From Thermodesulfatator sp. (GTDB lineage: Bacteria > Desulfobacterota > Thermodesulfobacteria > Thermodesulfobacteriales > Thermodesulfobacteriaceae), in assembly GCA_027036915.1 (NCBI GenBank), contig JALWCD010000245.1, positions 3,959-18,034 of the forward strand: a DNA stretch of 14,076 nt. The letters are read 5' to 3'. Both the position numbers and the translations under genes were made by a program. Shown piece after piece: positions 1-14,076 of this stretch. The notes beneath the pieces are model-generated. The model made no database searches, had not been told where the DNA came from, and saw only the letters and a program-made list of their open reading frames with translations. Positions within the stretch are counted from its first letter, which is position 1; every line of letters starts with the position of its first letter.

Positions 1-1
1 G

Positions 2-253: not shown

Positions 254-1640
254 GGAACCACAGGATTTGAAGCCCCAGCCCCCTTGAGGACCAGCTGAGA
301 CCCAGCAGGCCGTGAAGAAGTTTTACCTCCCGGCCCGTGGGGGAATGTTTATAGGAGAAAAGAAAGGCCAGTTCATGGATTTTTATTCCGGCCTCGACCT
401 CGTAACGGTAAAGCCCCCACAGGAGGCGCACATAGCGCCGTTCATCCGCAAACCGATAGACCTCAAAGAGTCTCAGAAGGGGCCCCAGATTGCGTTCTAG
501 CCCCTCGTCATAAAAGGGCAAAAGGGCCGGGAAATAAAAGAGGCTTTCACCGCTCCCGGACCGAGACCAATAGAGAAAGAGAGGCCAGGCCCTCACAAAC
601 CTTTCCCGCTCCTCACCCCGGCGGACAATTTTCCGGTAGCTAGAAAGGAGCAAAAAGCGCCCGGCAATCTCCTCCTCGTCCCCCCGTCGGAGGTGTTCGC
701 CCTGAAAAAGGGGCCAGAGGACAAAATTGGATTCGTAATCCGGCTTTTTCCGAAAACCGAAAAGCGGCCAGAGACGAAAGCCCCTCCGCTCCTCTCCCCT
801 CTGCCACTGGACGAAAGGCCAGGGAAAATCCCACTGTCTGAAACGACCGTCTCGACTCCACACCCGCTGGAAAAAGGGCCAGAGATAGATCCTCCTCCGG
901 TAAGAAGGGGTGTCCTCTCGCACGTAAAGGGGCCAGATCATACGTTTGGTGAAGGCTGGCCGGCCTTCTTCGTAGCGGGTCTCCCGTATGAAAACCGGCC
1001 ACAGGATGAAACTCCGGCGGAAAGCCCCTTTCTTTTCCCGGTAACCGAAAAGGGGCCAGACCTTAAAACCCGAAAGGGTCGGACCCCGACTGTAGTTGAA
1101 GATGGGCCAGAGGACATTGGTGGAACGATCACCGTCCACCAGGGTGGTGGAGTAAAGGGGCCAGAGGAAGAAACGAATTTCGTCGTAGCCGAAACGGCCC
1201 TTCAGCGTGCCGTAAAAGGGAAAGATTCCCCCGTAGCCCTCGCCCTCCGCCGTGCGCCCCCAGAAGATGGGGAAATAGGTGTGGCTCTTCTCCTGCCCCT
1301 TCTTCTCTCCCTCCTCCCAGTCGTAGGAAAAGAAGGGCACGAACCGAAAACGACGATAGGTCTTCTCCTGGTGGTAATGGCCGAGAGGGGAAAAGAAATA
1401 GAGGTCCTTTTCACCGGAAGCCCTGCGGTCAACCCAGGAAAACAGGGGACGCAGGGAAAAAGAAGCCTCCCGGCCGTTGCGATAGCGATAAAAAAAAGGC
1501 CCGGCCACCTCCAGGCGATTCACCTCTCCGGTCCGGGCGTAAAAAAAGAAGGGCCAGAGATTAACCCGATTTTCACCAGCCCGGACCGGAAGGGAGGCCC
1601 CCAGGATCGCAATGAGGAACAACCACAGGATTCTTCTCAT
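231..1640 (-). CDS. Secreted W-P repeat protein of unknown function, last gene of the mla operon
   Basis: I recognise no named family. The 469-residue protein starts with a signal peptide (MRRILWLFLIAILGASLPVRA, cut near residue 21), so it should cross the inner membrane. The rest is an array of short, aromatic, probably beta-stranded segments around a core of Trp-Pro plus two hydrophobic residues (LWPFF, LWPLY, VWPLF, IWPLY). Trp-Pro occurs at W29, 160, 178, 195, 214, 236, 254, 274, 291, 309 and 352; from 160 to 309 the spacing is a steady 17-22 residues. Between 45 and 145 the same pattern appears without Trp (AGPFF, LRPLF, FVPFF, YFPIF, IFPFY). Charged turns separate the segments. The start overlaps the mlaD stop by one base (TGATG), so the two are translationally coupled. 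The repeats suggest a beta-barrel or other all-beta fold in the outer membrane or periplasm. The last residue is Val rather than the aromatic typical of outer-membrane barrels, so location is open. Confidence 0.8.
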   Translation of the reverse strand: MRRILWLFLIAILGASLPVRAGENRVNLWPFFFYARTGEVNRLEVAGPFFYRYRNGREASFSLRPLFSWVDRRASGEKDLYFFSPLGHYHQEKTYRRFRFVPFFSYDWEEGEKKGQEKSHTYFPIFWGRTAEGEGYGGIFPFYGTLKGRFGYDEIRFFLWPLYSTTLVDGDRSTNVLWPIFNYSRGPTLSGFKVWPLFGYREKKGAFRRSFILWPVFIRETRYEEGRPAFTKRMIWPLYVREDTPSYRRRIYLWPFFQRVWSRDGRFRQWDFPWPFVQWQRGEERRGFRLWPLFGFRKKPDYESNFVLWPLFQGEHLRRGDEEEIAGRFLLLSSYRKIVRRGEERERFVRAWPLFLYWSRSGSGESLFYFPALLPFYDEGLERNLGPLLRLFEVYRFADERRYVRLLWGLYRYEVEAGIKIHELAFLFSYKHSPTGREVKLLHGLLGLSWSSRGLGLQILWFLRLGPSV

Positions 1641-2716
1641 CAGTGCATGGCGGCTCCGGCAATGGTTCCCAGGACCGAAATGGGCACCTGCTCCTGGATC
1701 CCGGTGGTGGCCCGGTTCACGTTCTGAAGGGCGCGTTTGGCTTCGAAGTAAAGGGAATCGTCGTTCACCAGTTTACCCAGCGTGCCCTCGCCTCTTTCGA
1801 TCTTCTTTACGATTCGTTCCAGGGAAGAGGCGGCTTCGTTCAGATGATTGTAAAGGGTCTTATCCGTAAGGAGTTTGCCCAGCGTGCCCTCACCCTTGTT
1901 AATCTTTTCGGCCACCTCCGCGATAGCCAGAGAGCCCTTCTCCACACTCTTCATGGCTTCCCGGAAGGACAGATAGAGTTCCTCATCCGTCAGGAGTTTG
2001 CCCAGCGTGCCCTCCCCTCTCTGCATCCTCTCCGAGATCTCCCGCAGATTGGCCATGGTGACCTTGAAGTCCGAAAAACTGCTCTTTATTTCCCGATAGA
2101 GTTCCTCATCGGTGAGGAGTTTGCCCAGCGTCCCTTCCCCCCGGGCCACCTTCTCTCCCACCTTCTTGAAGGCCGCGCTGGCGTCGCGAAGGTTCACGAT
2201 AAGCTCCCGGAGGTTGTTTTTACCCTCCTCGCTGCCGATGAGCTCCGCCAGACCCGAGGTCACCTGCCGTAGATCCTTGAGAGCCGGCCCCACCTCGGCG
2301 ATCACCTCGCTGAGATCCATGGGGCTCTCCGTGCGGGCGATGGTCTCCCCGGGCGCGAGTTTTTCCGGGGCCCGCCCCTGCTTGATCTCCACAAAACGAT
2401 CCCCCAGGACCCCGGCCGTCCGGATCCGGGCCTCGGCGTCTCTGGCGAGCTTTACATCCTTATAAATCAATAGCTCCACCCGGGCCCGGCCTTCCGGAAG
2501 GAGCGAGATCCGCCCCACCTTTCCGATCTCTACCCCCGCCATCTCCACCCGGGCTCCCCGCACCAGCCCCGAAACATTTTCAAACACGCCATACACGGGA
2601 TAAGTCCCCTTGGGCACCAGAGATTCCTCCGCCAGCTTGACCGTGAGATAACCCAGAGCCAGAAGGGCGGCCAGGACAAAAATACCCACCTTGATTTCGG
2701 TGCTCTTCTTATACAT
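1640..2716 (-). CDS. mlaD: MlaD-like MCE-domain lipid-binding protein
   Basis: This is the substrate-binding subunit of an Mla-type phospholipid transporter, anchored in the inner membrane and projecting into the periplasm. The 358-residue product has a short cytoplasmic tail, one membrane helix (about residues 10-28, VGIFVLAALLALGYLTVKLA), an MCE domain at about 38-115 (V-x-G-x-A-V-type core RGARVEMAGVEIGKVGRI) and a long, mostly helical C-terminal part. That part carries four copies of a GEGTLGKLLTDEELY motif at residues 192-207, 233-248, 274-289 and 308-323. E. coli MlaD is about half this length, so the tail is a large extension. I chose the start at 2716 because GGAGGAGGG lies five bases upstream and the membrane helix then sits normally; an upstream start at 2746 would add ten residues inside mlaF. 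It overlaps mlaF by eight bases. Confidence 0.93.
   Translation of the reverse strand: MYKKSTEIKVGIFVLAALLALGYLTVKLAEESLVPKGTYPVYGVFENVSGLVRGARVEMAGVEIGKVGRISLLPEGRARVELLIYKDVKLARDAEARIRTAGVLGDRFVEIKQGRAPEKLAPGETIARTESPMDLSEVIAEVGPALKDLRQVTSGLAELIGSEEGKNNLRELIVNLRDASAAFKKVGEKVARGEGTLGKLLTDEELYREIKSSFSDFKVTMANLREISERMQRGEGTLGKLLTDEELYLSFREAMKSVEKGSLAIAEVAEKINKGEGTLGKLLTDKTLYNHLNEAASSLERIVKKIERGEGTLGKLVNDDSLYFEAKRALQNVNRATTGIQEQVPISVLGTIAGAAMH
1748..2143 (-). repeat. Four tandem 16-codon repeats inside mlaD
   Basis: Four in-frame copies encode [R/K]GEGTLGKL[L/V][T/N]D-x-x-LY. The first three are 41 codons apart and the last follows after 34 codons. On the plus strand the conserved core reads ttgcccagcgtgccctc with few changes. 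The segments between copies differ in sequence but keep a helical, heptad-like character. This is a protein-level repeat and not an array of mobile or regulatory DNA. Confidence 0.9.
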
Positions 2717-3467
2717 TTCGGCCCTCCTCCGGATGACAGCCTTCAAAGGCGCTCTTTAAAAATTCCCTTACAAAAGGGTGCTCGCTTTTTCTTATTTCCT
2801 CGGGCGACCCCTCGGCCACCACCCGCCCCTCGTGCAGGATGGCAATATAATCCGCGGCCCGCATGGCAATGGGCACGTCGTGACTCACCACCACCCCGGT
2901 AAGCCGGTATTGCCGCTGGGTCTCCCGGATCAGTTTCATGATGGAGACCTGGAGGATGGGGTCAAGCCCGGTGGTGGGCTCATCAAAAAGAATGATCTCC
3001 GGTTCAAGGGCCAGGGCCCGGGCCAGGGCGGCCCTCTTCTTCATCCCTCCGGAAAGCTCCGAGGGATATTTGTCGCGGGCCTCAAGCAACCCCACCACCG
3101 AAAGCTTTTCGGCCACCTTCTCCTCGATTTCACGCTTTGAAAGCCTGCTATGCTCCCACAGAGGAAAGGCCACGTTTTCGGCCACGGTCATGGAGTCGAA
3201 AAGGGCCCCTTCCTGAAAAAGGAAACCGAATCGCCGCCGGAGTTTCTGCCACTGCCGATCCGAAAAACCCGTCACGTCCTGCCCGTCGATAAGGATGCGC
3301 CCCCGATCCGGTTTCAGCAAACCGATAATATGCTTGAGAAGCACGCTCTTTCCCGTTCCGCTTCGCCCCATGATGAAGGTGAGTTTTCCCGCCGGGATCC
3401 TGAGGTTGATGCCCCGCAGGACCTCGTGTTCCCCGAAACTCTTGTGGAGATCGACCAGTTCCACCAT
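2709..3467 (-). CDS. mlaF: MlaF-like ABC transporter ATPase
   Basis: This is the cytoplasmic ATPase that powers lipid movement through MlaE. All nucleotide-binding motifs are present in the 252-residue product: Walker A GRSGTGKS (34-41), Q-loop Gln at 85 (FLFQEGALFDSMTV), signature LSGGM (138-142), Walker B IILFDE (158-163) followed by PTTGLDP, and the switch His in VVVSHD (196). GALFDSMTVAENVAFPL and LSGGMKKRAALARAL are typical of MlaF/Ttg2A rather than of amino acid importers. The gene starts two bases after the mlaE stop (TAG-CC-ATG) and has no strong ribosome binding site, so translation is probably coupled to mlaE. Its end overlaps mlaD. The start at 3467 gives the full first beta strand (MVELVDLHKSFG). 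Confidence 0.95.
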   Translation of the reverse strand: MVELVDLHKSFGEHEVLRGINLRIPAGKLTFIMGRSGTGKSVLLKHIIGLLKPDRGRILIDGQDVTGFSDRQWQKLRRRFGFLFQEGALFDSMTVAENVAFPLWEHSRLSKREIEEKVAEKLSVVGLLEARDKYPSELSGGMKKRAALARALALEPEIILFDEPTTGLDPILQVSIMKLIRETQRQYRLTGVVVSHDVPIAMRAADYIAILHEGRVVAEGSPEEIRKSEHPFVREFLKSAFEGCHPEEGRNV

Positions 3468-3469
3468 GG

Positions 3470-4240
3470 CTAAAAGAGAAGAGAGGTCATAATGTAATCA
3501 CCCACCAGGATACTCACGGAAGCGATCACCACCGCCTCCGTGGTGGCCCGACCCACGCCCTCGGCCCCTCCGGAGGCGTTGTAACCCTTGTAACACCCTA
3601 TGATGGCAAGCAAGCCGCCGAAGACCAGGGCCTTGTAGATTCCGCTCGCGATATCCATCCACTCCACCATCTCCTGCATCTTCTTGATAAAGATACCCGC
3701 ATCCACCTTAAGGAGCATCACCCCCACCAGATAACCCCCGGCGATGCCCACCAGATCTGCAATCACCGTAAGGAGAGGGACCATCAGAACCGCGGCCCAG
3801 AAGCGTGGGACCACCAGGTAGTGCACCGGGTTGACCGCCATCACCTCCAGGGCGTCTATCTGCTCCGTGACCCGCATGGTTCCGAGTTCGGCGGCCATGG
3901 CCGAACCGGCCCGGGCCGTAACCATAAGACTGGTAAGCACCGGCCCGAGTTCCCGCACCAGGGAAAGGGCCACCAGTCCGCCCAGAAGGCTTTCGCCCCC
4001 GAATTTGGAAAGCGCGCGGTAGCTCTGAAAAGCGATGACCATCCCGGAAAAAAGGGCCGTAAGCACCACCACCAGCAGGGAATTGACCCCCACAAACTCC
4101 ATCTGTTTGAAGAAGAGTCTTACCCGATAAGGGGGTTTTACGGTGTAAGCCAGGGTGGTCAGGAAAAGAAGAGCCATTCCACCGGCCTGAGAAACGAACC
4201 CCAGACCCAGCCTTCCGAGATATTGCAGGAAGCCGAACAT
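3470..4240 (-). CDS. mlaE: MlaE-like ABC transporter permease
   Basis: This is the inner-membrane permease of the Mla-type lipid transporter; in known complexes an MlaE dimer pairs with MlaF and a ring of MlaD. The 256-residue length is normal. The most diagnostic stretch is residues 97-138, ELGPVLTSLMVTARAGSAMAAELGTMRVTEQIDALEVMAVNP, which contains the family's E-L-G-P and A-x-x-A-E-L-G-T-M motifs and the conserved E-Q-I-D-A-L. Several hydrophobic helices follow the usual pattern (about 52-75, 95-112, 148-175, 205-225 and 232-253). The start at 4240 has GGGGAGGGG just upstream and lies close behind a consensus-like promoter. It begins the transporter block mlaE-mlaF-mlaD. No mlaB or mlaC is found beside it. 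Confidence 0.95.
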   Translation of the reverse strand: MFGFLQYLGRLGLGFVSQAGGMALLFLTTLAYTVKPPYRVRLFFKQMEFVGVNSLLVVVLTALFSGMVIAFQSYRALSKFGGESLLGGLVALSLVRELGPVLTSLMVTARAGSAMAAELGTMRVTEQIDALEVMAVNPVHYLVVPRFWAAVLMVPLLTVIADLVGIAGGYLVGVMLLKVDAGIFIKKMQEMVEWMDIASGIYKALVFGGLLAIIGCYKGYNASGGAEGVGRATTEAVVIASVSILVGDYIMTSLLF

Positions 4241-4263
4241 GCCCCTCCCCGTTTTAGGGTCCC

Positions 4264-4293
4264 ATTATACAATCATTCCTCGTTCTCTAGCAA
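4264..4293 (-). promoter_or_regulatory. Probable promoter for the mlaE-mlaF-mlaD block
   Basis: On the minus strand there is a perfect -10 box TATAAT (4264-4269) and a -35 box TTGCTA (4288-4293, four of six consensus bases) separated by 18 bases. Transcription would start near 4257, leaving about 16 bases of leader that contain the mlaE ribosome binding site. The -35 box lies inside the last codons of the kinase gene. It is a sequence match only, but it sits where an internal promoter would be useful. Confidence 0.5.
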
Positions 4294-5112
4294 GCTCACG
4301 ATTTCGCCTTTAGAGGGCACCCCGGATAGTCCCGGACGGCTGACCCCGATGGCGGCCATTTCCATGGCCTTTTCGAGGGCCCGGGCCGGATTTTCTCTCT
4401 TAAAAAGGAGGGCGAAGAAGGCCCCGGCCAGGATGTCCCCGGCCCCGGTGGTATCCACGGCCCGGACCTTACGGGCCGGGAAAAACTTCTCCCGGTTTTC
4501 CACGAAGAGGCTGGCCCCTTCGGCCCCGCGGGTGAGAACCAGGATCCTCGAGCGTTCTTTGAGGGCCGCAAGCAGCCCCTCGGGATCCGCGGCCAGATCC
4601 TCCCGGCTCACCACCAGGGCTTCAAAATCAGGACTGCGGGAAAGATCCGGTCTCACGGGCTCGACCCTGCCCTCGCGCCCCACCTTTCTGAACCAGCCCT
4701 GGGGGTTGGCCACCAGGAAGCGGTAGCGAAAAGCCCGGCGGTAAACCCCGGCCTCAAGGGGCAATTCATCAAGCACCGGGGCCAGATGCAGGACCTCGGT
4801 CTCAAGAGGCCTCTCGAAGAAGGCCTCCAGATCAAGGGGGGCGGCCCGGGCCAGCACCCTCTGACGGCGCCCCTCCGGCGTCTCCAGGTTCTCAAAGACC
4901 GTGGTCTGCCGAGAGGTCTGAAGATGAAAGAAGAGTTCCGGAAAAAGGTTCTCCAGGGTCTCCAGGGGCTCCGCCGAGGCGGTCAGCACGTGCGTTTCGA
5001 GACCCAGCCTTCTTACGGTGAGCCCGGCGTAAAGGACCGCTCCCCCGAAACGAAACCCCCCTTCCGGGACGAGATCCCGGGTGAGATGCCCCACCAGGAG
5101 GTAGCGGGCCAT
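4273..5112 (-). CDS. PfkB-family (ribokinase-like) carbohydrate kinase
   Basis: The 279-residue protein belongs to the PfkB fold and should phosphorylate a sugar, nucleoside or related small alcohol using ATP. The clearest evidence is the C-terminal PfkB signature AVDTTGAGDILAGAFFALL, with DTTGAGD at 220-226 and the catalytic-base Asp at 226. The N-terminal part has a Gly-rich substrate region (GGAVLYAGLTVRRLG, 23-37). It is slightly shorter than ribokinase (about 300), and I cannot name the substrate. Its ATG follows the ilvD stop without a gap (TAGATG), so it is translationally coupled to a branched-chain amino acid gene; that does not by itself define a substrate. The stop is 32 bases before mlaE. 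Confidence 0.88.
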   Translation of the reverse strand: MARYLLVGHLTRDLVPEGGFRFGGAVLYAGLTVRRLGLETHVLTASAEPLETLENLFPELFFHLQTSRQTTVFENLETPEGRRQRVLARAAPLDLEAFFERPLETEVLHLAPVLDELPLEAGVYRRAFRYRFLVANPQGWFRKVGREGRVEPVRPDLSRSPDFEALVVSREDLAADPEGLLAALKERSRILVLTRGAEGASLFVENREKFFPARKVRAVDTTGAGDILAGAFFALLFKRENPARALEKAMEMAAIGVSRPGLSGVPSKGEIVSLLENEE

Positions 5113-6771
5113 CTATTCCTCTAGCACCGCCCCCCGGGCCCCGGAGGTCACCAGCCTGGCGTAGCGGGCCAGCACCCCGGAAACCTTCCTGCGCCTGGGA
5201 CGGAACTTCCGGCGTCTCTTCTCCAGTTCCTCCTCCGGAACCAGGAGGTCCAGCCGGCGTGCCGGGATATCGATCCGGATGGGGTCTCCGTCCCGAACCA
5301 GGGCTATGGGCCCTCCCTCGGCGGCCTCGGGGGAGACGTGGCCGATACAGGCCCCCTGGGTTCCCCCGCTGAAACGGCCGTCGGTGATGAGGGCCACCGA
5401 GGAACCAAGACCCATCCCGATGAGAGCCGAGGTGGGCGAAAGCATCTCCCGCATCCCCGGCCCCCCTTTGGGACCCTCGTAACGTATGACCACCACATCC
5501 CCGGGACGAATCTCCCTCCCGAGGATGGCCTTATAGGCCTCTTCCTCGGATTCGAAGACCCGGGCCGGCCCTTCGTGACGCATCATCTCCGGGACCACGG
5601 CGCTGGTCTTGACCACCGCCCCTTCCGGAGCCAGACTTCCCCAGAGAATGGCTATACCCCCCTCCTCCCGGTAGGCCCTCTCCAGGGGCCGAATGACCTC
5701 CGGATCCCGAATGCGAGCCGATTTCAGGACGGCCTCCAGGGTTTCTCCGGTGGCGGTAAGGACTCCGGTGTCGATGAGTCCGGCCCGTTTGAGTTCCGCC
5801 ATGACCGCCGGAATTCCGCCGGCCTCATGAAGCTCGGGCACGCTGTGGGGGCCGGCCGGAATGAGACTGGCCAGGACCGGAGTCTTGCGCGAGATCTCGT
5901 CAAAGACCGTAAGGGGCAGATCCAGCCCGGCCTCCCGGGCGATGGCCGGCACGTGAAGCACGGTGTTGGTGGAACAACCCAGGGCCATGTCCACCGCGAT
6001 GGCATTGCGGAAGGCGGCCTCGGTGGCGATCTTCCGGGGGGTGATCCTCCTGCGCAGGAGTTCGACCACTTTGAGACCGGTCTTCTTGGCCAGCCGCAGT
6101 CTTTCGGCCGAAACCGCCGGTATGGTCCCGTTTCCGGGGAGGGCCAGGCCCAGGGCCTCCGAAAGACAGTTCATGGAATTGGCCGTAAACATCCCGGCAC
6201 AGGACCCGCAGGTGGGACAGGCGCATTCCTCGAGTTCCGCGAGTTCCTCCTCCGTGAGGGCTCCACTTTTGACCTGGCCGATCCCCTCGAAGACCGAAAT
6301 CAGATTGACCTTGCGCCCCCGGAAGGACCCGGTGAGCATGGGACCTCCGGAGACCAGAAGGGCCGGAATATTCAAACGTAGGGCTGCCATGAGCATACCG
6401 GGGGTGATCTTGTCGCAACTTGAGACCAGGACCAGGGCGTCGAAGGCGTGGGCCCGGGCCATGATCTCTATGCTATCGGCAATGATCTCCCGGCTCACCA
6501 GGGAATACCTCATGCCCTCGTGGTTCATGGCGAGGCCATCGCAGACCCCGATGACCCCGAACTCCACGGGCACGGCCCCGGCCATGCGGATGCCGGCCTT
6601 GACCGCCTCGGCGATCTGACGCAGATGTACATGCCCGGGCACAATCTCGTTAAAGGCGTTGGCCACCCCCACCAGGGGTCTGCGCAACTCTTCCTCGGTA
6701 AGCCCCAGGGCCCGAAGAAGGGAGCGGTGAGGGGCCCTTTCGAGACCCTTTTTGATGCGATCGCTTCGCAT
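5113..6771 (-). CDS. ilvD: Dihydroxy-acid dehydratase
   Basis: The enzyme removes water from 2,3-dihydroxy-isovalerate and 2,3-dihydroxy-3-methylvalerate in valine, leucine and isoleucine synthesis, and feeds pantothenate synthesis. The 552-residue length is normal. Visible family motifs are [15 protein letters not shown] (77-91), [10 protein letters not shown] (117-126, Fe-S ligand C119), [18 protein letters not shown] (185-202, Fe-S ligand C191) and the late [16 protein letters not shown]. The first-cysteine position reads VPGHVHL, as in the E. coli enzyme, and not the P-C-N-x-H of [2Fe-2S] members. That suggests an oxygen-sensitive [4Fe-4S] type, by inference. The start at 6771 has GGAGGAGG six bases upstream. 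It is the first gene of the leftward operon, and no other ilv or leu gene is nearby. Confidence 0.97.
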
Positions 6772-6803
6772 ATTCGACCTCCTCCTTTGCCCTTTCCCCT
6801 CCA

Positions 6804-6831
6804 GTTATAACACCCTTGCCTTTTCGGTAAA
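6804..6831 (-). promoter_or_regulatory. Candidate promoter for ilvD
   Basis: On the minus strand a -10 box TATAAC (6804-6809) lies 16 bases from a -35-like TTTACC (6826-6831, four of six consensus bases). A transcript would start near 6797 and include the ilvD ribosome binding site at 6778-6785. This is a plausible but unproven match in the only intergenic gap where a promoter can sit. Confidence 0.4.
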
Positions 6832-6843
6832 AGCGGTTAATTT
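6816..6843 (+). promoter_or_regulatory. Weak candidate promoter for the nfu-rpoZ-dnaJ operon
   Basis: On the plus strand TTGCCT (6816-6821) and TAATTT (6838-6843) are 16 bases apart, with four and three consensus matches. The site overlaps the candidate ilvD promoter on the other strand, so the divergent operons might interfere with each other. The gap holds nothing better, but the match is poor. Confidence 0.25.
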
Positions 6844-6874
6844 TAGCATCAAATTCGGAAAGGGGGTTTTTCTT

Positions 6875-7099
6875 ATGCGAGAAGCCGTGGAGGCCGCGCT
6901 GAACAAGGTAAGGCCCATGCTTCAGGCCGACGGCGGGGACGTGGAGCTGGTGGAAATTACGGAAGACGGGGTGGTTAAGGTCCGTCTGCAGGGGGCCTGC
7001 GGGGCCTGCCCCATGTCGCAGATGACCCTCAAGATGGGCATCGAGCGTTATCTCAAGAAGGAGGTTCCGGAGGTCAAGGCCGTGGAGGCCGTAATGTAA
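6875..7099 (+). CDS. Nfu-type iron-sulfur carrier (stand-alone NifU C-terminal domain)
   Basis: This 74-residue protein is a free-standing Nfu domain that binds an Fe-S cluster between two subunits and passes it to client enzymes. The diagnostic features are the N-terminal [26 protein letters not shown] and the cluster-binding [13 protein letters not shown] with Cys at 42 and 45. It lacks the other NifU or NfuA domains. The ATG at 6875 is chosen because AGGGGG lies upstream and the homology begins there; a longer frame back to 6752 would run through the promoter region. IlvD on the other side of the promoter and the radical SAM protein further on are Fe-S enzymes and possible clients, but this is only context. 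The stop is ten bases before rpoZ. Confidence 0.92.
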
Positions 7100-7109
7100 G
7101 GAGGGGGCC

Positions 7110-7373
7110 ATGGCCCGGGTAACGGTTGAAGACTGTCTAGAGAAAGTTCCCAACCGCTTCAAACTCATTCACCTGACCGTGGAACGGGTGAGACAGTTAA
7201 GGAAAGGGGCCAAGCCCCTGGTGGAGTGCGACAACAAGGAGATCGTAACGGCTCTGAGGGAGATCGCCGCCGGGAAAGTAACCTTCGAGAACATCAAGGA
7301 ACTGGCCAGGGAGGCCGAAGAATTCTCCATCTCGGATCTTCTTGAGGGCAAGGCCCCCGGTGAGGAGTCGTGA
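7110..7373 (+). CDS. rpoZ: DNA-directed RNA polymerase omega subunit
   Basis: Omega is the small subunit that helps fold and stabilise the beta' subunit of RNA polymerase. The 87-residue product has the typical N-terminal signature [20 protein letters not shown], the central [13 protein letters not shown] and the conserved [28 protein letters not shown] lies a few bases before the start. Its usual spoT or gmk neighbours are absent. Instead it sits between an Fe-S carrier and dnaJ, and its stop overlaps the dnaJ GTG start by four bases (GTGA). Confidence 0.94.
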
Positions 7374-8485
7374 AGAAAGACTACTATGCCATCCTGGGAG
7401 TTCCCCGGAACGCCACCCAGGAAGAAATCAAAAAGGCCTATCGTCGCCTGGCCTTAAAGTACCATCCTGACCGCAATCCCGACAATCCGGAAGCCGAGGA
7501 GAAATTCAAGGAAATCTCCGAGGCCTACGAGGTCCTTTCCGACCCGGAAAAGAGGGCCATATACGACTCACAGGGGCTGGCAGGCCTTCACCGGCGCGGT
7601 TTTCGGGGCTTCGAGGACGTGGAGGACATCTTCTCGGCCTTCTCCGATCTCTTTGAAGAATTCTTTGGCTTCGGGTTCCGGGAAAAACCCGGGCGCAAAC
7701 CCCGCCCGGGAGCGGACCTCTCCTATGAGCTCACCCTGAGCCTGGAAGAGGTTTACTCCGGTAAGGAGACCGAGATCACCTTAGAGAAATACGAACGATG
7801 CGAGGCCTGCGGGGGGTCGGGGCTTTCCCCGGGCTCTCAGCCGCGCTATTGCCCGGTCTGCAAGGGCCGGGGTCACATCGTGCACTCGGAAGGCTTTTTC
7901 AGGGTGAGCACCACCTGCCCCCACTGTCACGGTCTGGGAACCTACGTGGCCGACCCCTGTCCCAAGTGCCGGGGAGAAGGCCGGGTTTGGCGGCGCAAGA
8001 GACTGAAGGTGCGGATCCCCCCGGGAGTGGATGAGGGCAGCATCATCCGGATCGCCGGGGAAGGTGAGGCCGGGCTTTACGGAGGGCCGGCCGGAGACCT
8101 TTATCTCAAGATCCGCACCAAACCGCACGAGTATTTCCGCCGCGAGGGGAAAAACCTTCATCTCTCGCTGGTCATAGGGGTGGTGGACGCCATTCTGGGA
8201 GCCGAAACCGAAATCCGTCACCTCTCCGGAGAGAAGATCCGGATCAGGATCCCCCGCGGCAGTCAGCCCGGAGACCGTATCCTCATCAAGGGTCGGGGGC
8301 TTCCGGATCCCCGGGGAGGAGAGCCCGGCGACCTCATCGTACACCTGGAAGTGCGTCTGCCCAGCCGGATCAACCGGGAACAGGAGGACCTCCTTCGACG
8401 TTTTGCGGAGCTTGAGAAGACCGGGGGCCCCCAGGTCAAGGGCCGTAAAAAGAAGGGGTTCTGGGAAAAGATCTTTCGGGAATGA
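7370..8485 (+). CDS. dnaJ: Type I DnaJ (Hsp40) co-chaperone
   Basis: DnaJ delivers unfolded proteins to DnaK and stimulates its ATPase. The 371-residue product has a full type I layout: a J domain at 1-68 with HPD at 32-34, a Gly/Phe-rich segment (about 70-107), four zinc-binding C-x-x-C-x-G-x-G repeats at 144-151, 161-168, 183-190 and 197-204, and C-terminal substrate-binding domains. The first repeat reads CEACGGSG and the last CPKCRGEG. It starts with GTG at 7370, supported by GAGGAG upstream, overlap with the rpoZ stop and the expected [11 protein letters not shown]. No dnaK or grpE is nearby, which is unusual though common where chaperone genes are scattered. Its stop overlaps moaC (ATGA). 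Confidence 0.96.
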
Positions 8486-8994
8486 AGCCCATGCATTTTA
8501 CCCATCTTCATCCGGACGGCAGCGCCCGCATGGTGGATGTTTCGGAGAAAGCGGCTACGCCCAGGGAAGCCGTGGCCCGGGGCCGGGTACTCCTGGGCGA
8601 AAAGGTCTTTAGCCTGGTAAAGGACCGGAGCCTTCCCAAAGGGGACCTCTTCGGAGCGGCCCGGATCGCCGGAATCCTGGCGGCCAAAAGGACCTGGGAG
8701 CTGATTCCCCTCTGTCACCCCCTTCCCATCACCAAGATCGAGATCCATTTCGCCCTCAACGAAGAAGCCCTGAGCCTTGAGATCGAAGCCCGGGTCAAGA
8801 CCGTGGCCCGCACCGGCGTGGAAATGGAGGCCCTCACCGCGGTCTCGGTGGCGGCCCTCACGGTCTACGACATGTGCAAAGGGATTGACAAAGGCGTCCG
8901 AATTACGGATATTCGGCTAGCGGAAAAACGCGGCGGCAAGAGCGGCGAAGTCATCCTGGAGGAAGGAGGCTTGTATGGATCCCAAAAAGCTTGA
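8482..8994 (+). CDS. moaC: Cyclic pyranopterin monophosphate synthase
   Basis: MoaC makes cyclic pyranopterin monophosphate, the first stable intermediate of molybdenum or tungsten cofactor synthesis, from the product of MoaA. The 170-residue sequence carries family motifs in order: [18 protein letters not shown] (17-34), [25 protein letters not shown] with His 79, and [25 protein letters not shown] with catalytic Asp 130 and Lys 133. The MKPM start at 8482 overlaps the dnaJ stop by four bases; a second Met at 8491 is possible. MoaA and the other moa genes are not in the window, so the pathway must be completed elsewhere. The 3' end overlaps the following dksA-like gene by 20 bases. Confidence 0.95.
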
Positions 8995-9337
8995 ATACTT
9001 CAAAAACCTTCTTCTGGAGAAAAAGAAAAGACTCATCGCCGAGGCGGATCGCACCTTCCACGCCCTGGAAGGGGGAGCCGAGCATCTGGCGGACCCCACC
9101 GACATCGCCACCCAGGAAAGCGATCTGGGCTTCGAACTACGCCTGAGAGATCGGGAGCGCAAGCTCCTCAAAAAGATAGACAAGGCCCTCAAGAAGATCG
9201 AGGAGGGCTCCTACGGCATCTGTGAGGCCTGCGGGGAGGAGATCGAGGAAAGGCGCCTGGAGGCCCGCCCGGAGGCCACCCTCTGCATTCGCTGCAAGCG
9301 CGAACAGGAAAAGATGGAGAAACTCCGCGGAGAATAA
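8975..9337 (+). CDS. dksA: DksA/TraR-family zinc-finger transcription regulator
   Basis: Members bind in the RNA polymerase secondary channel and, often with ppGpp, change initiation at selected promoters. The 120-residue product has a long charged coiled coil (about 1-75) whose tip carries the DPTDIA motif (D40, D43, A45), matching the D-x-x-D-x-A of active DksA. A C4 zinc finger follows with Cys at 83, 86, 104 and 107 (CEAC and CIRC). It is shorter than E. coli DksA (151) but normal for relatives in many phyla. GGAAGGAGG lies upstream of the ATG at 8975. Being in one operon with rpoZ is suggestive, since omega and DksA both act with ppGpp in E. coli; a link here is inference. The gene next downstream starts four bases after its stop. 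Confidence 0.9.
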   Translation: MDPKKLEYFKNLLLEKKKRLIAEADRTFHALEGGAEHLADPTDIATQESDLGFELRLRDRERKLLKKIDKALKKIEEGSYGICEACGEEIEERRLEARPEATLCIRCKREQEKMEKLRGE

Positions 9338-9340
9338 CCT

Positions 9341-10327
9341 TTGCCGGAGATCCGCGAGGACCCGGTAAGCGGTCGTCTCTCCCTTATCGCGCCGGAAAGA
9401 GGGCAACGGCCCACGGATTTCCGGATCCCGGAAGAGGAGAGACGGGAGGGGAGCCGCTGTCCCTTCTGTCCGGGCAACGAGGAGCTCACCCCTCCGGAGA
9501 GTCTGAGGCTTTCGGCCGGGGGAGGATCTTCTTCCTGGCAGGTAAGGGTGGTCCCGAATCGCTATCCGGCCCTGCGTCCGGACGCGGATAAGGCGGCCGG
9601 AGATCCCCTTCACCGGATCACGCCCGGTCTGGGGTACCACGAGGTCATCATTGAGACCCCGGAACACGAAAAGTCTCTTGAAAGTTTCTCTCCCGAGGAA
9701 ATGGATCTGGTCTTCCAGGCCTTCGTCCTCCGGGCCCGGGCCTTCCTTGAGAAGGGCCGGTGGCGTTACGCCCTCTTTTTCAAGAACCGCGGACGACGGG
9801 CCGGGGCCTCCCTCAGTCACAGCCACAGCCAGCTCATGGCCCTGCCCTTCGTTCCCCCCCTCCTGGAACGGGAGCTCGCCCGCGCCCGGGCCTTCCATGC
9901 CGAGACCGGGAAATGTCTTTTCTGTCGTCTGGCAAGAGAGGAGGCCTCCGGACCACGGCTCCTTTTCGAGAGCCGGCACTTCGTGGCCTTTCAGGCCTTT
10001 GCCCCCAGACAGCCTCTGGAGACCTGGATCCTGCCCAGGCCCCACGGTCTTGATTTTCTGCACCTGGAAGAGGACCTCCGGAGGGAATTCTGCGAGACCC
10101 TTCTCCGGGTTCTTCGCCTGCTGGAAAGGACCCTTCCCGGCCTGCCCTATAACTTCTTCCTGCACCTTGAACCCCTGGGGTCCCCGCCCCTGCCCTACTT
10201 TCACTGGCACCTCGAGCTCGTGCCGGCCCTGACCCGGGTGGCCGGTTTCGAATGGGGGACGGAGGCTTACATCGTGCCTCTGAGGCCCGAAGAAGCCACG
10301 GCCTTCCTGCGCACCCTGAAACCGTGA
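9341..10327 (+). CDS. galT: Galactose-1-phosphate uridylyltransferase-like protein
   Basis: GalT exchanges UMP between UDP-glucose and galactose-1-phosphate in the Leloir pathway; relatives use other nucleotides such as ADP. The 328-residue protein has CPFC (C40, C43), the conserved VPNRYPAL, GYHEVIIETPEH, and an active-site HSHSQ at 160-164 in which the middle His 162 is the expected UMP-carrying nucleophile. A second CLFC pair (C192, C195) and FHWHLELVP with H288 and H290 complete the two HIT-like halves. HSHSQ in place of the usual H-P-H-[GST]-Q is a variant, so the sugar or nucleotide is uncertain. The start is TTG at 9341, with GGAG nine bases upstream. No galK or galE is nearby. The stop overlaps the rsmG GTG start (GTGA). 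Confidence 0.88.
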   Translation: MPEIREDPVSGRLSLIAPERGQRPTDFRIPEEERREGSRCPFCPGNEELTPPESLRLSAGGGSSSWQVRVVPNRYPALRPDADKAAGDPLHRITPGLGYHEVIIETPEHEKSLESFSPEEMDLVFQAFVLRARAFLEKGRWRYALFFKNRGRRAGASLSHSHSQLMALPFVPPLLERELARARAFHAETGKCLFCRLAREEASGPRLLFESRHFVAFQAFAPRQPLETWILPRPHGLDFLHLEEDLRREFCETLLRVLRLLERTLPGLPYNFFLHLEPLGSPPLPYFHWHLELVPALTRVAGFEWGTEAYIVPLRPEEATAFLRTLKP

Positions 10328-10959
10328 GCCCGGAAAGGTTTCTACGGGAGATAAAAAAACTCGCCCCGGAGGCCGGGGAAGAAACTCTTCAAAAGCTTCT
10401 CCTTTTTGGCCGACTTCTACGGGAAACGGCCCACCCCCTGGGACTTATCGGCGAGACCCGGGAGACCGACCTCCTGGAAAAACATCTCATGGACTCTGCC
10501 TTCCTCCGGCCTCACCTTCGACAGGGGCCGGTGGCGGACCTGGGAAGCGGGGCCGGGCTTCCCGGGCTGGTGCTGGCCATCCTTTCTCCGGAGCTTGAGA
10601 TCTGGCTGGTGGAACCCCGGCGAAAGGCTATCTCTTTTCTGGAATATGCCCGGGTTAGTCTGGGGCTTGAGAGGGTAAGGATCGTTCGGGCCCGGGCCGA
10701 AGCCCCGGAGGTCCCCCGCGGGTATTTCGAGACCGTGACCGCCCGGGCGCTTGCCGACCTTGAGAGCCTTTGGCGGCTGGCCGAACCGCTCCTGCGGCCC
10801 GGAGGCTTTCTCCTGGCCCCCAAGGGCCCGCGGGGTCGGACCGAGGTGGAAAACCTCAAAAACCACCATCCCGATCTGGTAGTGGAAACCTTTCCCTATC
10901 GGCTTTCCGGCGGGGGCTTGCGGATGGTGGTGAGAGTTCTCAAAGGGTCTCCCAGTTGA
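10324..10959 (+). CDS. rsmG: 16S rRNA (guanine-N7) methyltransferase
   Basis: RsmG (GidB) methylates G527 of 16S rRNA with S-adenosylmethionine. The 211-residue product matches the family in length and shows motif I VADLGSGAGLPGLVLAI (70-86), then VEPRRKAISFLEYA and the KHLMDSAFL stretch that corresponds to R-H-L-x-D-S. The late TARALADLESLWRLAEPLLRPGGFLLAPKG is also typical. Where many members have N-L-T-A-I, this one reads LGLIGET, a small deviation. I chose GTG at 10324, in GTGA overlap with the galT stop; a longer frame back to 10252 would lie fully inside galT. It is the last gene of the rightward operon, away from the common gidA/parAB setting, and its 3' end overlaps the convergent zinc-finger gene by 20 bases. 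Confidence 0.92.
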   Translation: MSPERFLREIKKLAPEAGEETLQKLLLFGRLLRETAHPLGLIGETRETDLLEKHLMDSAFLRPHLRQGPVADLGSGAGLPGLVLAILSPELEIWLVEPRRKAISFLEYARVSLGLERVRIVRARAEAPEVPRGYFETVTARALADLESLWRLAEPLLRPGGFLLAPKGPRGRTEVENLKNHHPDLVVETFPYRLSGGGLRMVVRVLKGSPS

Positions 10960-11158
10960 GACAGTTGGGACAGACCCAGGTAATGGCGTTACAGGAAAAA
11001 TACTTCTGGTCCCGGGAGAGACAGACCTGACAGACCGTAAAACCGCAACGCCGGCACCTCCAGAGAAGGGGGCGTTTCTCCCCGCAGAAATCGCACTCGC
11101 CGGAGCCGTATTTGGGATTCCGGCCTTTAAGACCGCGATCGGGCCTTGAGCCTGGCAT
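10940..11158 (-). CDS. Small nine-cysteine zinc-finger protein of unknown function
   Basis: I do not recognise a named family. The 72-residue protein has nine Cys at 22, 25, 35, 38, 43, 46, 56, 63 and 66, in the pattern C-x2-C-x9-C-x2-C-x4-C-x2-C-x9-C-x6-C-x2-C. Eight of them could form two zinc sites in a cross-braced, FYVE- or B-box-like fold. Conserved-looking pieces are ECDFCGEKRPLLWRCRRCGF and ITWVCPNCLNW. There is no signal peptide or membrane helix, so it is probably cytoplasmic. The ATG at 11158 is chosen; GGAGGA lies 12 bases upstream, which is long, while a TTG at 11170 lies too close to it. It overlaps the end of the LPS-kinase-like gene by 32 bases and is the third gene of this operon. 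Confidence 0.7.
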   Translation of the reverse strand: MPGSRPDRGLKGRNPKYGSGECDFCGEKRPLLWRCRRCGFTVCQVCLSRDQKYFSCNAITWVCPNCLNWETL

Positions 11159-11867
11159 CGTGAGCCGCAATCCTCCGGATCTTCTTTTCCAATTTTTTAA
11201 GCATGGAGGGGCTTTTGAGCCAGGGGTGGAAACGAAGATAGCCTTCGAGGAAGCGGGCCTCGAATTCCCCGGCCTCCGGCCCCAGAAGCTCTCTTGCGGA
11301 ATAAAAAAGCTCCGCCAGATCCTTGATGATCCAGCGGGGCTTCGGTCTCCCGGCCCATCTCACCCGTTGAAGGTCGATGAGGGTCAGGCGGTGGCCGTTC
11401 CAGAAAAAGTGACAGAGGTAGAAATCCTGGTGGGAGAAACCCTGGGCGTGAAAACGGGCGGCGGTCTCCACCAGAGGAGGTATGAGCTCCCGAAAGCTTC
11501 CCGGAGAATCCCGGAGGAGGTCCTCAAGGCGCACCCCGGGGGCTTCCAGAAAGACGCTCAAGGCCCTTCGAGGGCGTATCCCCCGCTCCAGCCCGAAGGC
11601 CACGGGCTCCGGGACCCCGAATCCCCGGCGGCTCAATTCCCGGGCGGCCCACCATTCCCTCTCCGCCCCGGTTCGAAATTCCAGGGCCCCGAAACGGAAA
11701 TAACGTTTAAGGAAGAGCCGCCGGCCGGAAACCTCCAGGCGCCGGATTTCCCGCTCCCGCTTGATCTTGAAGACCCGGGCCGGGACCTCCCACAGGGCCT
11801 CAAAGGACGCAAGCCCCGCCCCCGCAAGGATTTCCCGCCAGCTCGGCTCAATCTCGAAAATTCTCAT
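11127..11867 (-). CDS. WaaP/Kdo-kinase-like lipopolysaccharide kinase
   Basis: The 246-residue protein looks like the WaaP (RfaP)/KdkA group of kinases, which transfer phosphate from ATP to heptose or Kdo of the LPS inner core at the inner face of the cytoplasmic membrane. Visible kinase features are the ATP-contacting Lys 54 in LFLKRYF, Glu-rich GAEREWWAARELSRRG (67-82), the catalytic loop HQDFYLCHFFW with Asp 148, and the metal-binding LIDLQR with Asp 165. HxDFYxCH followed by LIDLxR is the hallmark of WaaP. E. coli WaaP is slightly longer (265). The basic C-terminus (KKLEKKIRRIAAHDARLKARSRS) could contact membrane or nucleic acid. The start overlaps the radical SAM stop by four bases (ATGA). 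The exact sugar is not predictable; InaA-like stress kinases are the alternative. Confidence 0.83.
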   Translation of the reverse strand: MRIFEIEPSWREILAGAGLASFEALWEVPARVFKIKREREIRRLEVSGRRLFLKRYFRFGALEFRTGAEREWWAARELSRRGFGVPEPVAFGLERGIRPRRALSVFLEAPGVRLEDLLRDSPGSFRELIPPLVETAARFHAQGFSHQDFYLCHFFWNGHRLTLIDLQRVRWAGRPKPRWIIKDLAELFYSARELLGPEAGEFEARFLEGYLRFHPWLKSPSMLKKLEKKIRRIAAHDARLKARSRS

Positions 11868-13168
11868 GCGACCAGGTTCCGGACATAGACCTTGAGTTCC
11901 TCTATAGCCTCCCAGTCGGGATTTTTGAAGGCCGGAAAAACGGAATTGTTGTGATAGAGGGGATCCTCGGTGAGAGGATAACGGGAAACCTCCCGGGCGA
12001 CCTCAAAAAGCGGGGTTCCCGGAACCGGGGAGTATTCCGCGAGAATGGGCCGGGCCCCCAGACGGGCCACGTATTCCGCTGCGCGGCGCACCCGGGTAAG
12101 GGGTTCTCCCGGAAGCCCGCAGAGGAGATAGACGCCGATCTCCCGCGGGTGGTAGCCGGCCTCCTGGAGGTACCGCACGGCGGCCTCGAATTCCTCAAGT
12201 CCCACCTTGTGGTCGTAGCGTCTCTCCAGGGTCTCAAGCCCCAGTCTCAGGGTCACGAAACCCGCCCGCTTGAGCCAGCGGGCCACCTCCCCCGTAAGGA
12301 AGCGGGCATGGAGGGCGTTGGGGGTGTGAAACCGAATCCGTAGCCCCCGCCGACAGACCTCCTCAAGAAGGGGCCCCAGGTGATGTTCAAAATCCCAGAG
12401 GAGGGCGTCATCATAAAAAGCGAAATCCACCACTCCGTATCTTTCGTGCCAGTAAAGGATTTCTCTAAAAACCTCCCCCGGTGTTCGCCTTTCAAAACCC
12501 GGAAAGAGGATCCCGGAAGCACAGTAGGCACAGCGGAAAGGGCAACCCTTTCCCGTAAGAAGCACCACATAGGGCAGTTTGCGCTGGAGATCAAAGACCG
12601 GATAGTCGAAAGGGGCGGGCTCTCCGGAGGGTTCGATCAGGGTCCGGATACGGGCCAGGATGGCCTCCTCCCCGGATTCGGTCACGATCTCGGCTTCGGG
12701 GAAATTCCGCCGGGCGTGTTCCGGACAGAGCCGGGCGTATACCCCACCAAGAAGGATGGGGGTTTGCGGAAAGAGTTTTCTCAAAAGCCTGTAGGCCTCA
12801 AGGGCCCCGGGATACCAGTAAGTCAGAAGGGCGGTCAGAAGGATCAGGCGCGGCGGACTCAGACGCCGCATGTCCGTTTCCGCAAGGGCCGGAGGGAGGC
12901 CGTAGCGGGCAAACCCCCGGGGGACATCCGCCAGAATGGCCGGTTTCGGAAGCCGCTCCCGGTAAAAATGTCCCGTGCCGTAAAGTTTCCTTTTGGGTTT
13001 GCGGGGCAGTTCCGGGTGAAAGGGATCAAGGAGATCCAGAAGACCAACCCGATAGCCTGCCTGCCGGAGAAGGCCTCCCAGTTTGAGAAGCCCATAGGGC
13101 CTCAGCCAGAGATCGTAAGCCGCAAAATCGTATATCCAGGGATTGACCAGAAGGACATCCACTTTCAA
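11864..13168 (-). CDS. Radical SAM protein with an N-terminal cobalamin-binding-like domain
   Basis: The 434-residue protein carries a radical SAM core with the [4Fe-4S] motif GCPFRCAYCAS (Cys 209, 213, 216), and an N-terminal Rossmann-like domain (VDVLLVNPW, GLLKLGGLLRQAGYRVGLLDLLDP) like the B12-binding domain of many radical SAM enzymes. The base-off motif D-x-H-x-x-G is not visible, so cobalamin binding is doubtful. LLGGVYARLCPEH and VTESGEEAI link the two domains as in that class. The reaction is unknown; coupling with an LPS-kinase-like gene hints at modification of a cell-envelope glycan or lipid, by inference. In-frame start choices are TTG at 13168 and GTG at 13162, both without a ribosome binding site. 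A longer frame to 13246 would translate through a tRNA fragment and is rejected. Confidence 0.85.
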   Translation of the reverse strand: MKVDVLLVNPWIYDFAAYDLWLRPYGLLKLGGLLRQAGYRVGLLDLLDPFHPELPRKPKRKLYGTGHFYRERLPKPAILADVPRGFARYGLPPALAETDMRRLSPPRLILLTALLTYWYPGALEAYRLLRKLFPQTPILLGGVYARLCPEHARRNFPEAEIVTESGEEAILARIRTLIEPSGEPAPFDYPVFDLQRKLPYVVLLTGKGCPFRCAYCASGILFPGFERRTPGEVFREILYWHERYGVVDFAFYDDALLWDFEHHLGPLLEEVCRRGLRIRFHTPNALHARFLTGEVARWLKRAGFVTLRLGLETLERRYDHKVGLEEFEAAVRYLQEAGYHPREIGVYLLCGLPGEPLTRVRRAAEYVARLGARPILAEYSPVPGTPLFEVAREVSRYPLTEDPLYHNNSVFPAFKNPDWEAIEELKVYVRNLVA

Positions 13169-13170
13169 AA

Positions 13171-13214
13171 TGGCGGCCCCACTGGAATTAGAACCCGAGT
13201 CTATGGCGTGAAGA
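13171..13214 (-). pseudogene. Decayed 3' half of a tRNA-Glu gene (UUC-like), putative old att site
   Basis: Read on the minus strand, the 44 bases match the 3' half of tRNA-Glu: anticodon loop TCTTCAC (13208-13214, anticodon TTC but with C at the normally invariant U33), stem GCCAT, AGAC, a T arm, acceptor TGGGGCC, discriminator G and encoded CCA (13171-13173). The T stem has one C-A mismatch and one G-T pair (TCGGG with TCCAG), so it has decayed. No D arm or 5' acceptor half is present upstream. It is identical to the copy at 13937-13980 at 34 of 44 positions. CCA ends two bases before the radical SAM TTG start. Confidence 0.8.
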
Positions 13215-13256
13215 AAGACATCGGGCCCGAAATCCTTATGTGTCAAGGGATTTCAT

Positions 13257-13514
13257 TCAGGAAGAGCTTTTTCTTAATCGGCCCTCATCGGTTGCAAACG
13301 GGTTTGACAGTAAAAAGTCTCTTTCCATGTCTTTAAGCACATGAGTCGGAACCTCTAAGAGAAGGAAAAACTCTTTAGGGTAGAGGTAGGCTTCCCCGGA
13401 TTCATCTATCACTTTAAAAAGGCCGTGTTCTTCTCCTATGAGAGGGTAGAGCTTCCATCTTTCAAGGGATGCTTCATAACCCTGGTTTTTGACGCAAAGG
13501 ACGACTTTATTCAT
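13257..13514 (-). CDS. Small protein of unknown function, second gene of the island pair
   Basis: I cannot name a family. The 85-residue product begins MNKVVLCVKNQGYEASLERWKLYPLIG and has a central GLFKVIDESGEAYLYPKEFFLLLEVP, which reads like a small mixed alpha/beta fold that binds a partner. There is no signal peptide, membrane segment or metal motif. Its ATG overlaps the end of the upstream small gene by eight bases, so the two are translated together. Local G+C is far below that of the core genes (27 of 60 at 13381-13440), in keeping with acquired DNA. A toxin-antitoxin-like or other two-component unit is possible from size and overlap alone, and this is weak inference. Confidence 0.7.
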   Translation of the reverse strand: MNKVVLCVKNQGYEASLERWKLYPLIGEEHGLFKVIDESGEAYLYPKEFFLLLEVPTHVLKDMERDFLLSNPFATDEGRLRKSSS

Positions 13515-13755
13515 GGCTTAAAATCCGGATTATTCGTTTTATTTTAAATTCCTTCTTTCCGATCCCATGGGCTTCGTACCAGTGTATTTCGGCCAAGGCT
13601 ATGGTTCCATCCGGCAATCTTATCTTAGCAGTTCCTTTCAGCTTTCGCCATCTTTCAGGGCCATAAACCTTACGAAGCCGTTTCAATTCTCGAATGGAGC
13701 GTCCTACGGCTATGGTTTCGAGGTCTTGGACAGGTCCCAGAATTTCGAAGAACAT
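13507..13755 (-). CDS. Small basic protein of unknown function, first gene of the island pair
   Basis: The 82-residue product reads MFFEILGPVQDLETIAVGRS, then IRELKRLRKVYGPERWRKLKG, KIRLPDGTIALAEIHWYEAHGIGKKEFKIKRII. Its features are a basic first half, a beta-strand pair and a compact HWYEAHGIG motif, which looks like a conserved active or binding site. I do not recognise a named family or function. A TTG at 13773 would add six residues (LKCFG and the first residue); I prefer the ATG at 13755, because the added residues look unlike the rest, although no good ribosome binding site supports it. Part of the gene is very AT-rich (18 G+C of 60 at 13501-13560). It overlaps the next gene by eight bases. 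With no promoter recognised, it may depend on upstream transcription. Confidence 0.68.
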   Translation of the reverse strand: MFFEILGPVQDLETIAVGRSIRELKRLRKVYGPERWRKLKGTAKIRLPDGTIALAEIHWYEAHGIGKKEFKIKRIIRILSHE

Positions 13756-14076
13756 CCCGAAACATTTTAGCAAAGCTTTTTCGGCCTCACCGCTACTTTT
13801 ATTTCACCATCACTTCCCAAGAAGTCTCCCGAAAAATCGCTGAAAACTGCGAAGAAGATCTTACGAAGGGTTCAGAAAGTGACTTAACTCCGGAAAAAAA
13901 CCTTCGAGAGTCCAGGACCCTTCACTTTGAAAATTATGGCGGCCCCACCGGGACTCGAACCCGGGTCTCTGGCGCGAGAGTGGGATCCGCCTTTTTCATT
14001 CTTCGTCAGATTTAACTTTTCTTGCAATTTTACCACGCATTAAAAGTCATGCTATCCATGAAATTCCACTTTTTGG
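13756..14076. other. Gene-poor, low-GC stretch at the island edge
   Basis: No protein-coding frame of useful length is visible on either strand. It contains the tRNA-Glu 3' half at 13937-13980. Upstream of the small genes (13775-13936) I see no convincing promoter pair. Short inverted pieces occur (CGAAGG at 13865 with CCTTCG at 13901) but with a 30-base loop and no U-run, so I do not call a terminator. On the minus strand, a frame open from the right edge ends at a TAA at 14030-14032, giving 14 codons; it may be the tail of a gene beyond the window, but it is too short to support. Confidence 0.5.
13937..13980 (-). pseudogene. Well-preserved 3' half of a tRNA-Glu gene (CUC), putative att site
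   Basis: On the minus strand this reads anticodon loop CTCTCGC (anticodon CTC, U33 kept), 3' anticodon stem GCCAG, AGAC, a perfectly paired T arm (CCGGG, loop TTCGAGT, CCCGG), acceptor TGGGGCC, discriminator G and encoded CCA at 13937-13939. The bases before the anticodon loop (GGATCCCA) cannot pair with GCCAG, and no GGCCCCA 5' acceptor strand appears up to the window edge, 96 bases away. The gene is therefore cut exactly at the anticodon loop. This is a known crossover place for tyrosine integrases, so the fragment is best read as an attachment-site remnant and not as a working tRNA. Confidence 0.82.

Follow-up and report, generated by a model that had tools for sequence, protein, structure and literature searches.

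Two displaced tRNA-Glu 3' halves point to stacked insertions at a tRNA-Glu(CTC) gene in a Thermodesulfatator genome

Integration at the anticodon loop of tRNA genes, and the stacking of elements at one RNA gene, have both been described. In the Islander collection, 2083 of 3919 islands have anticodon-centred attachment sites (subsite A) and 125 tandems are reported (PMC4383910), and a review of archaeal recombinases describes how the 7-bp anticodon loop, together with its stem, fits the core site (PMC8371274). A review of IMEs sets out decay to a CIME (cis-mobilizable element) followed by later accretion (PMC5704250), and in Dehalococcoides islands are stacked at ssrA, some of them without an integration module (PMC3146451). 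In this study, we analysed a window of 14,076 nucleotides, meaning the whole stretch of DNA under consideration, from the assembly of a heat-loving bacterium, Thermodesulfatator sp. (G000; 263 contigs, 90.8% complete, 1.73 Mb). We conclude that elements have stacked at least twice at its tRNA-Glu(CTC) site, a case of tandem accretion of tRNA-targeted islands, which is a known kind of event in a new place; our confidence in this explanation as a whole is high. The mechanism is textbook and already known. In a literature search that was not exhaustive we found no published description of this tRNA-Glu(CTC) site, and by term search "genomic island", "mobile" and "transpos" each occur 0 times in the Thermosulfurimonas dismutans genome paper (PMC4911364).

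The features of the locus (Table 1) resemble each of these systems in part. As in Islander islands of subsite A, a displaced 3' fragment starts from the anticodon loop and, in a relative, a tyrosine integrase lies just inside the tRNA, whereas for the recent insertion considered here the assembly contains neither the intact tRNA nor the integrase (PMC4383910). As in the tandem accretion described for CIMEs, an integrase-less remnant lies between two attachment halves at one tRNA and a further insertion has been added; unlike a CIME, the remnant has a decayed outer half and arm, and no transfer genes were seen (PMC5704250). Given the decay of that half and arm, the segment is probably no longer mobilizable. 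Dehalococcoides likewise has several islands at a single RNA gene, with a copy of the 3' end of that gene bounding each; these islands differ in their serine recombinase, which acts at the tmRNA T loop, and in their cargo of reductive dehalogenase genes (PMC3146451). A partial tRNA gene of 44 bp and a complete one, with 44-bp direct repeats, also flank the island PYG1 of Pyrococcus yayanosii; that island, however, is archaeal, sits at tRNA-Gln(TTG), and is a single one with both ends known (PMC9897764).

Table 1. Features at the right-hand end of the window, with the basis of each assignment.
Position	Strand	Feature	Basis
11864..13162	-	Radical-SAM protein gene (start inferred); core flank and, in the simplest reading, ancestral right-hand neighbour of tRNA-Glu(CTC)	Radical_SAM above cut-off
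13171..13214	-	Probable older displaced 3' half of tRNA-Glu, now decayed; marks the chromosomal edge of the insertion tract	35/44; position as intact tRNA in G003
13215..13936	.	Probable integrase-less remnant of an older element, G+C 0.44	Homologous to G005 and G001 segments; no integrase match on contig
13257..13514	-	orfA, 85 aa, uncharacterised	Homologue in G008 about 0.7 kb from its displaced half
13507..13773	-	orfB, 88 aa, small and uncharacterised, from a very large protein family	Profile and homologue search, predicted fold
13937..13980	-	Probable displaced 3' half of tRNA-Glu(CTC), attR of the more recent insertion	43/44 against relatives' tRNA; cut base as in G008 fragment (44/44)
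13981..14076	-	Probable right arm of the recent integrative element, to the contig end	Aligns with right arms in G001, G005 and G008; single copy in own assembly

The minus strand from 13980 to 13937 corresponds to nt 33-76 of a 76-nt tRNA-Glu(CTC) gene whose sequence is the same in seven related genomes (G001, G002, G003, G004, G005, G007 and G008), and the only mismatch among the 44 bases is the one just 3' of the anticodon. ARAGORN places the anticodon at gene positions 35-37, so that the half starts with the first base of the 7-nt loop and extends through CCA. A chance match is excluded by its E value of 1.6e-15 against the whole 1.73-Mb assembly. An overlooked 5' half directly beside the fragment is likewise rejected, as the bases that precede it are not a D arm; ARAGORN found no complete tRNA in the window, and the 5' half of the gene had no match in the assembly at E <= 1e-4. 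The original prediction of a tRNA-Glu 3' half, cut at the anticodon loop and with nothing of the gene before it, is thus upheld, and the most plausible reading of the fragment is a displaced attachment half of the attR type. The window covers positions 3959-18034 of its contig (C245), which ends with it, 96 bases past the cut, and the intact tRNA-Glu(CTC) presumably lies beyond that end. Elsewhere in the assembly the Rfam tRNA model has 38 matches, 37 of them over its cut-off, and among the loci around these matches ARAGORN places a tRNA-Glu(TTC) on contig C33. That tRNA-Glu(CTC) was not found in this 90.8% complete assembly is not taken as a real gene loss, as tRNA-Phe was not found either.

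A second, decayed tRNA-Glu 3' half lies 770 bases away in the same orientation, separated by 8 bp from the inferred start of the radical-SAM gene. BLAST aligns it with nt 36-76 of the tRNA gene at 85%, and 35 of 44 bases are identical over the span of nt 33-76. It is interpreted here by comparison with the relatives, which include Thermosulfurimonas dismutans S95 (G008), Thermosulfurimonas sp. S012_5 (G003), the metagenome-assembled genome (MAG) HyVt-483 (G005), Thermodesulfobacteriaceae S143_67 (G001), a further Thermodesulfatator sp. (G007) and two Thermodesulfobacteriales MAGs (G030 and G034). Strain S012_5, the closest of those searched as judged by the radical-SAM protein (86%), has an empty site: a divergent UvrA-like gene, an intact tRNA-Glu(CTC) and, 8 bp on, the radical-SAM gene, with no insert. 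The radical-SAM label rests on a Radical_SAM domain above its cut-off (a B12-binding domain is below its own), and the UvrA-like label on the 775-aa copy in HyVt-483, for which UvrA is the best family at 501 bits, under the 730-bit cut-off. tRNA-Glu(CTC) also precedes the radical-SAM gene in G006, G007 and G009, by about 33, 306 and 161 bp. No tRNA was seen just before the gene in G010, and in G002 and G005 the gene has a different location, where the stretch examined around it contains no tRNA match. The simplest reading is that the order of tRNA-Glu and radical-SAM gene is ancestral and that the decayed half is what remains of the original 3' half of the tRNA.

Since the intact tRNA of strain S012_5 and the decayed half occupy equivalent places beside the radical-SAM gene, the chromosomal edge, and with it the G+C step, lies close to 13.2 kb, which makes 13937 an internal junction. 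The base composition agrees, with a G+C of 0.607 over positions 1-13170, 0.439 over 13212-13936 and 0.365 over 13981-14076. The original prediction had placed the start of a steep G+C drop in the region of the fragment, and the edge of the island at the fragment itself. Neither placement is supported, as the fall begins near the second copy and the core-genome edge is the older half, which leaves 13937 as a junction between two insertions. What stands is the event proposed for the fragment, in which integration at the anticodon loop, by an element of the tyrosine-recombinase kind, left the old 3' half displaced. Two observations count against a simple account of the neighbourhood. The UvrA-like gene of the source genome is on contig C57 and no longer has a tRNA-Glu behind it, and therefore the surroundings have been rearranged in this genome as well. 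In addition, a TPR-protein gene, and not the radical-SAM gene, lies beyond the small inserted segment in S143_67 and HyVt-483, which speaks against a simple series.

The 0.7-kb stretch between the two halves is related to segments in other genomes, with 84% identity over 493 bp to the segment that follows the intact tRNA-Glu in HyVt-483 and 83% over 481 bp to contig C140 of S143_67. Its first 130 bases, after the older half, match neither segment, nor any other relative compared. The attachment halves at its two ends differ in preservation (inner 43/44, outer 35/44), and most of the outer arm is missing in the alignment. Its coding content consists of two open reading frames (85 and 88 aa) that match no named family; integration and transfer genes are absent, and no integrase match was found anywhere on the contig. 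The larger product, from orfB, could alternatively start at an internal ATG at 13755, giving 82 aa as in the relative in HyVt-483. It belongs to a family of proteins of about 80 aa with a strongly conserved core, for which at least 7994 of the 7999 scored candidates listed, the window's own protein included, were significant (E <= 1e-3), yet it has no match in Pfam, NCBIfam, PHROG or PADLOC at the thresholds used. A protein 99% identical to that of orfB is encoded on a contig of 7460 bases, which may represent the same locus in a different assembly. AlphaFold predicts a confident beta-alpha-beta-beta-beta fold (pLDDT 90) that has no match in the PDB at E <= 0.001; Rad52 fragments were the best structural matches, and at an E value of 0.17 they are not taken as meaningful. 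For orfA, 12 of 14 candidates, again counting the window's own, reached E <= 1e-3, and there is a weak match to PHROG 34144, of unknown function. Neither profile, of orfB or of orfA, matched a PDB sequence at E <= 0.1.

That the body of the recent element extends to the right of 13937, as originally predicted, is borne out by the 96 bases found there, which match the right arm of the relatives' element. Their alignment score with the right arms of S143_67 and HyVt-483 was reached by 0 of 1000 dinucleotide shuffles in each case, and that with the right arm of T. dismutans S95 by 2 of 1000. For the same bases, alignments with two stretches upstream of intact tRNAs (score reached by 999 and 190 of 1000 shuffles) and with two left arms (906 and 352 of 1000) scored in the ordinary range. 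In the relatives, the right arm precedes a displaced half in S143_67 and T. dismutans S95; HyVt-483 has the arm without a recognisable half after it, even under a permissive search (best E 0.39, on the wrong strand). The left arm, which follows the intact tRNA, is common to G002, G004, G007, G008 and G034 and is shared in part by G005; G034 belongs to another family. BLAST finds no left arm in G003, G006, G009, G025-G033 or G039, and G001 has too little sequence at this point. In T. dismutans S95, a 44-nt half with the same cut and 44 of 44 bases identical stands before the radical-SAM gene, and the intact tRNA-Glu(CTC) is near the UvrA-like gene on another contig, with the left arm following.

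Both kinds of element end in the relatives also carry a repeat, GGTGTCCATA, of which there are 9 exact copies, always at such ends, in 248,628 bp of 24 loci where 0.41 would be expected; these loci were chosen around the sites in question, and two of them overlap by 3 kb. Seven of the nine copies are 47-104 bases from a tRNA or a half, the remaining two are in the right arm of HyVt-483, and eight fall in six of the 24 loci. We infer that the repeats are arm sites of the integrase. The window has 0 matches to the repeat with up to 1 mismatch and is therefore counted as having lost it, a point against the reading. An integrase gene is seen in G034. There, a stop-to-stop open frame that starts some 0.1 kb after the tRNA-Glu has matches to PF00589 and to N-terminal domains of integrases; the C-terminal part continues in another frame, which makes this a broken tyrosine-integrase gene just inside an intact tRNA-Glu. 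In G004 a two-piece integrase match lies 6.7 kb after the tRNA-Glu, and in HyVt-483 a sub-threshold remnant (20.9 bits) comes after the small segment. The assembly of the source genome has 6 integrase matches, none of them on the contig of the window.

Relatives of the first piece of the G034 integrase were found in 7 of 297 sampled genomes of the phylum at E <= 1e-30, and in 6 of these 7 a tRNA is in the same locus (within 1.5 kb on either side). The tRNA is just before the integrase and in the same direction as it, an arrangement also seen in G034, in two of the six (tRNA-Lys in G026, tRNA-Arg in G018) and on the other side in four. At the tRNA-Lys site, two copies of GGTGTCCATA, one with a mismatch, lie 12 bases apart after the tRNA and beside the related integrase. 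No displaced half was found within the 5.6 kb examined at the tRNA-Lys site or the 6.8 kb at the tRNA-Arg site. A search of IMG/VR with the integrase piece returned no relative, and the tRNA-half and paired-repeat patterns no exact match; there is thus no sign of a known phage.

Across 41 genomes of the order, tRNA-Glu(CTC) is matched in 40 at E <= 1e-4. Fragments that start at nt 33-41 occur in three of the 41, two in the source genome and one each in S143_67 and T. dismutans S95, a count that leaves out two matches lacking the 3' end, in G041 (at a contig start) and in G042. The left arm is retained in G002 and G004 (99% complete), which have one tRNA-Glu match each, with no displaced half at E <= 1e-4. 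The left arm is followed in G004 by an IS256-family transposase gene and in G002 by a gene with a transposase match under the cut-off; the right ends of these elements seem to have been lost. In S143_67, the small segment is followed by a decayed half of nt 41-76, and the contig with the tRNA (C90) would join contig C140. The site is therefore seen empty in strain S012_5, with one small element in HyVt-483 and probably in S143_67, and with the small element and a second insertion in the source genome.

These states, together with the two halves, suggest a history that would begin with tRNA-Glu(CTC) followed after 8 bp by the radical-SAM gene. The first element to integrate would have recombined with the anticodon loop, using its own copy of the 3' half to rebuild the tRNA and pushing the old half to the right-hand side, and would then have decayed to the 0.7-kb remnant, keeping two small open reading frames and losing its integrase. 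Later, a related element would have recombined at the same loop with the still-functional tRNA, pushing out the second 3' half; in this genome, too, the agent would be a tyrosine integrase. We infer the direction of these events. Serial insertion at an intact tRNA predicts that the younger half is nearest the tRNA and the older one farther away, and the match of 43/44 for the proximal half and 35/44 for the distal half fits this. The near-perfect state of the proximal half also suggests that it was under selection until recently.

The opposite order would produce an identical final map. The large element would have come first, and the small one would have entered its displaced half (attR) later, bringing the half at 13937 with it, and integration into attR has been described for tandem mobile-element structures (PMC5704250). 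We consider this unlikely, however, given that the half at 13937 would be intact at 43 of 44 bases though never under selection, and that the small segment of HyVt-483 lies directly after the intact tRNA-Glu, without the large element. Breakage of the tRNA-Glu gene by rearrangement, or misassembly at the contig end, with no site-specific integration, would suit both a contig that stops 96 bases beyond the cut and the separation of the UvrA-like gene from tRNA-Glu in the source genome. It is very improbable all the same, since T. dismutans S95, a strain assembly, has the same cut base with a homologous arm, the two halves share one orientation, and the arm is common to other genomes. We give next to no credence to the half being a functional split-tRNA piece, or an independent tRNA-like RNA, for although its T arm and acceptor 3' strand are intact and cmscan matches it to a tRNA-like family at 23 bits, below the gathering threshold of 42.5, the assembly has no 5' half at E <= 1e-4, the older copy is decayed and relatives keep the whole gene.

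Serial insertion at the intact tRNA is thus the reading that we prefer, and it fixes an insertion hot spot, the tRNA-Glu(CTC) between the UvrA-like and radical-SAM genes, in a little-studied group of bacteria whose related genomes show the site empty, singly and doubly occupied. It also illustrates that a tRNA half found close to the end of a contig can mark a boundary inside a stack of islands and not the edge of an island. A wider proposal, tentative and in our view rather doubtful, is that the arms and the integrase belong to an unnamed element family of the Thermodesulfobacteriales, characterised by paired GGTGTCCATA arms and an integrase with an N-terminal Cys-rich segment. Such a family might have spread from one bacterial family to another and from sites at one tRNA to those at another (tRNA-Glu and tRNA-Lys), and its integrase-less mini-islands with orfB and orfA might have been moved in trans by resident relatives.

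Several minor observations concern the surroundings of these sites. Sugar-nucleotide genes (for GDP-mannose dehydratase, mannose-1-phosphate guanylyltransferase and RfbA) are found in T. dismutans S95 (4887-7449 of a locus on contig C13) and in G002 (10782-11660 of a locus on contig C2); transposase genes share these contigs, and all are at most about 15 kb from the tRNA-Glu or its half. The sugar-nucleotide genes are a possible cargo of the element, putatively for surface polysaccharide. In S143_67, the sequence after the decayed half is 74% identical over 155 bp to the sequence after the intact tRNA-Glu in G030, a member of another family, possibly reflecting a further, older insertion at the tRNA-Glu site. 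Within the source genome, contig C137 has a truncated tRNA match at 2690-2746, resembling tRNA-Thr(TGT) by eye, with a tyrosine integrase match about 1.1 kb away (1132-1620), and this is possibly another insertion site. On contig C54, a tyrosine integrase match (9525-10001) lies about 270 bp from a tRNA-Leu(CAG) at 10267-10350.
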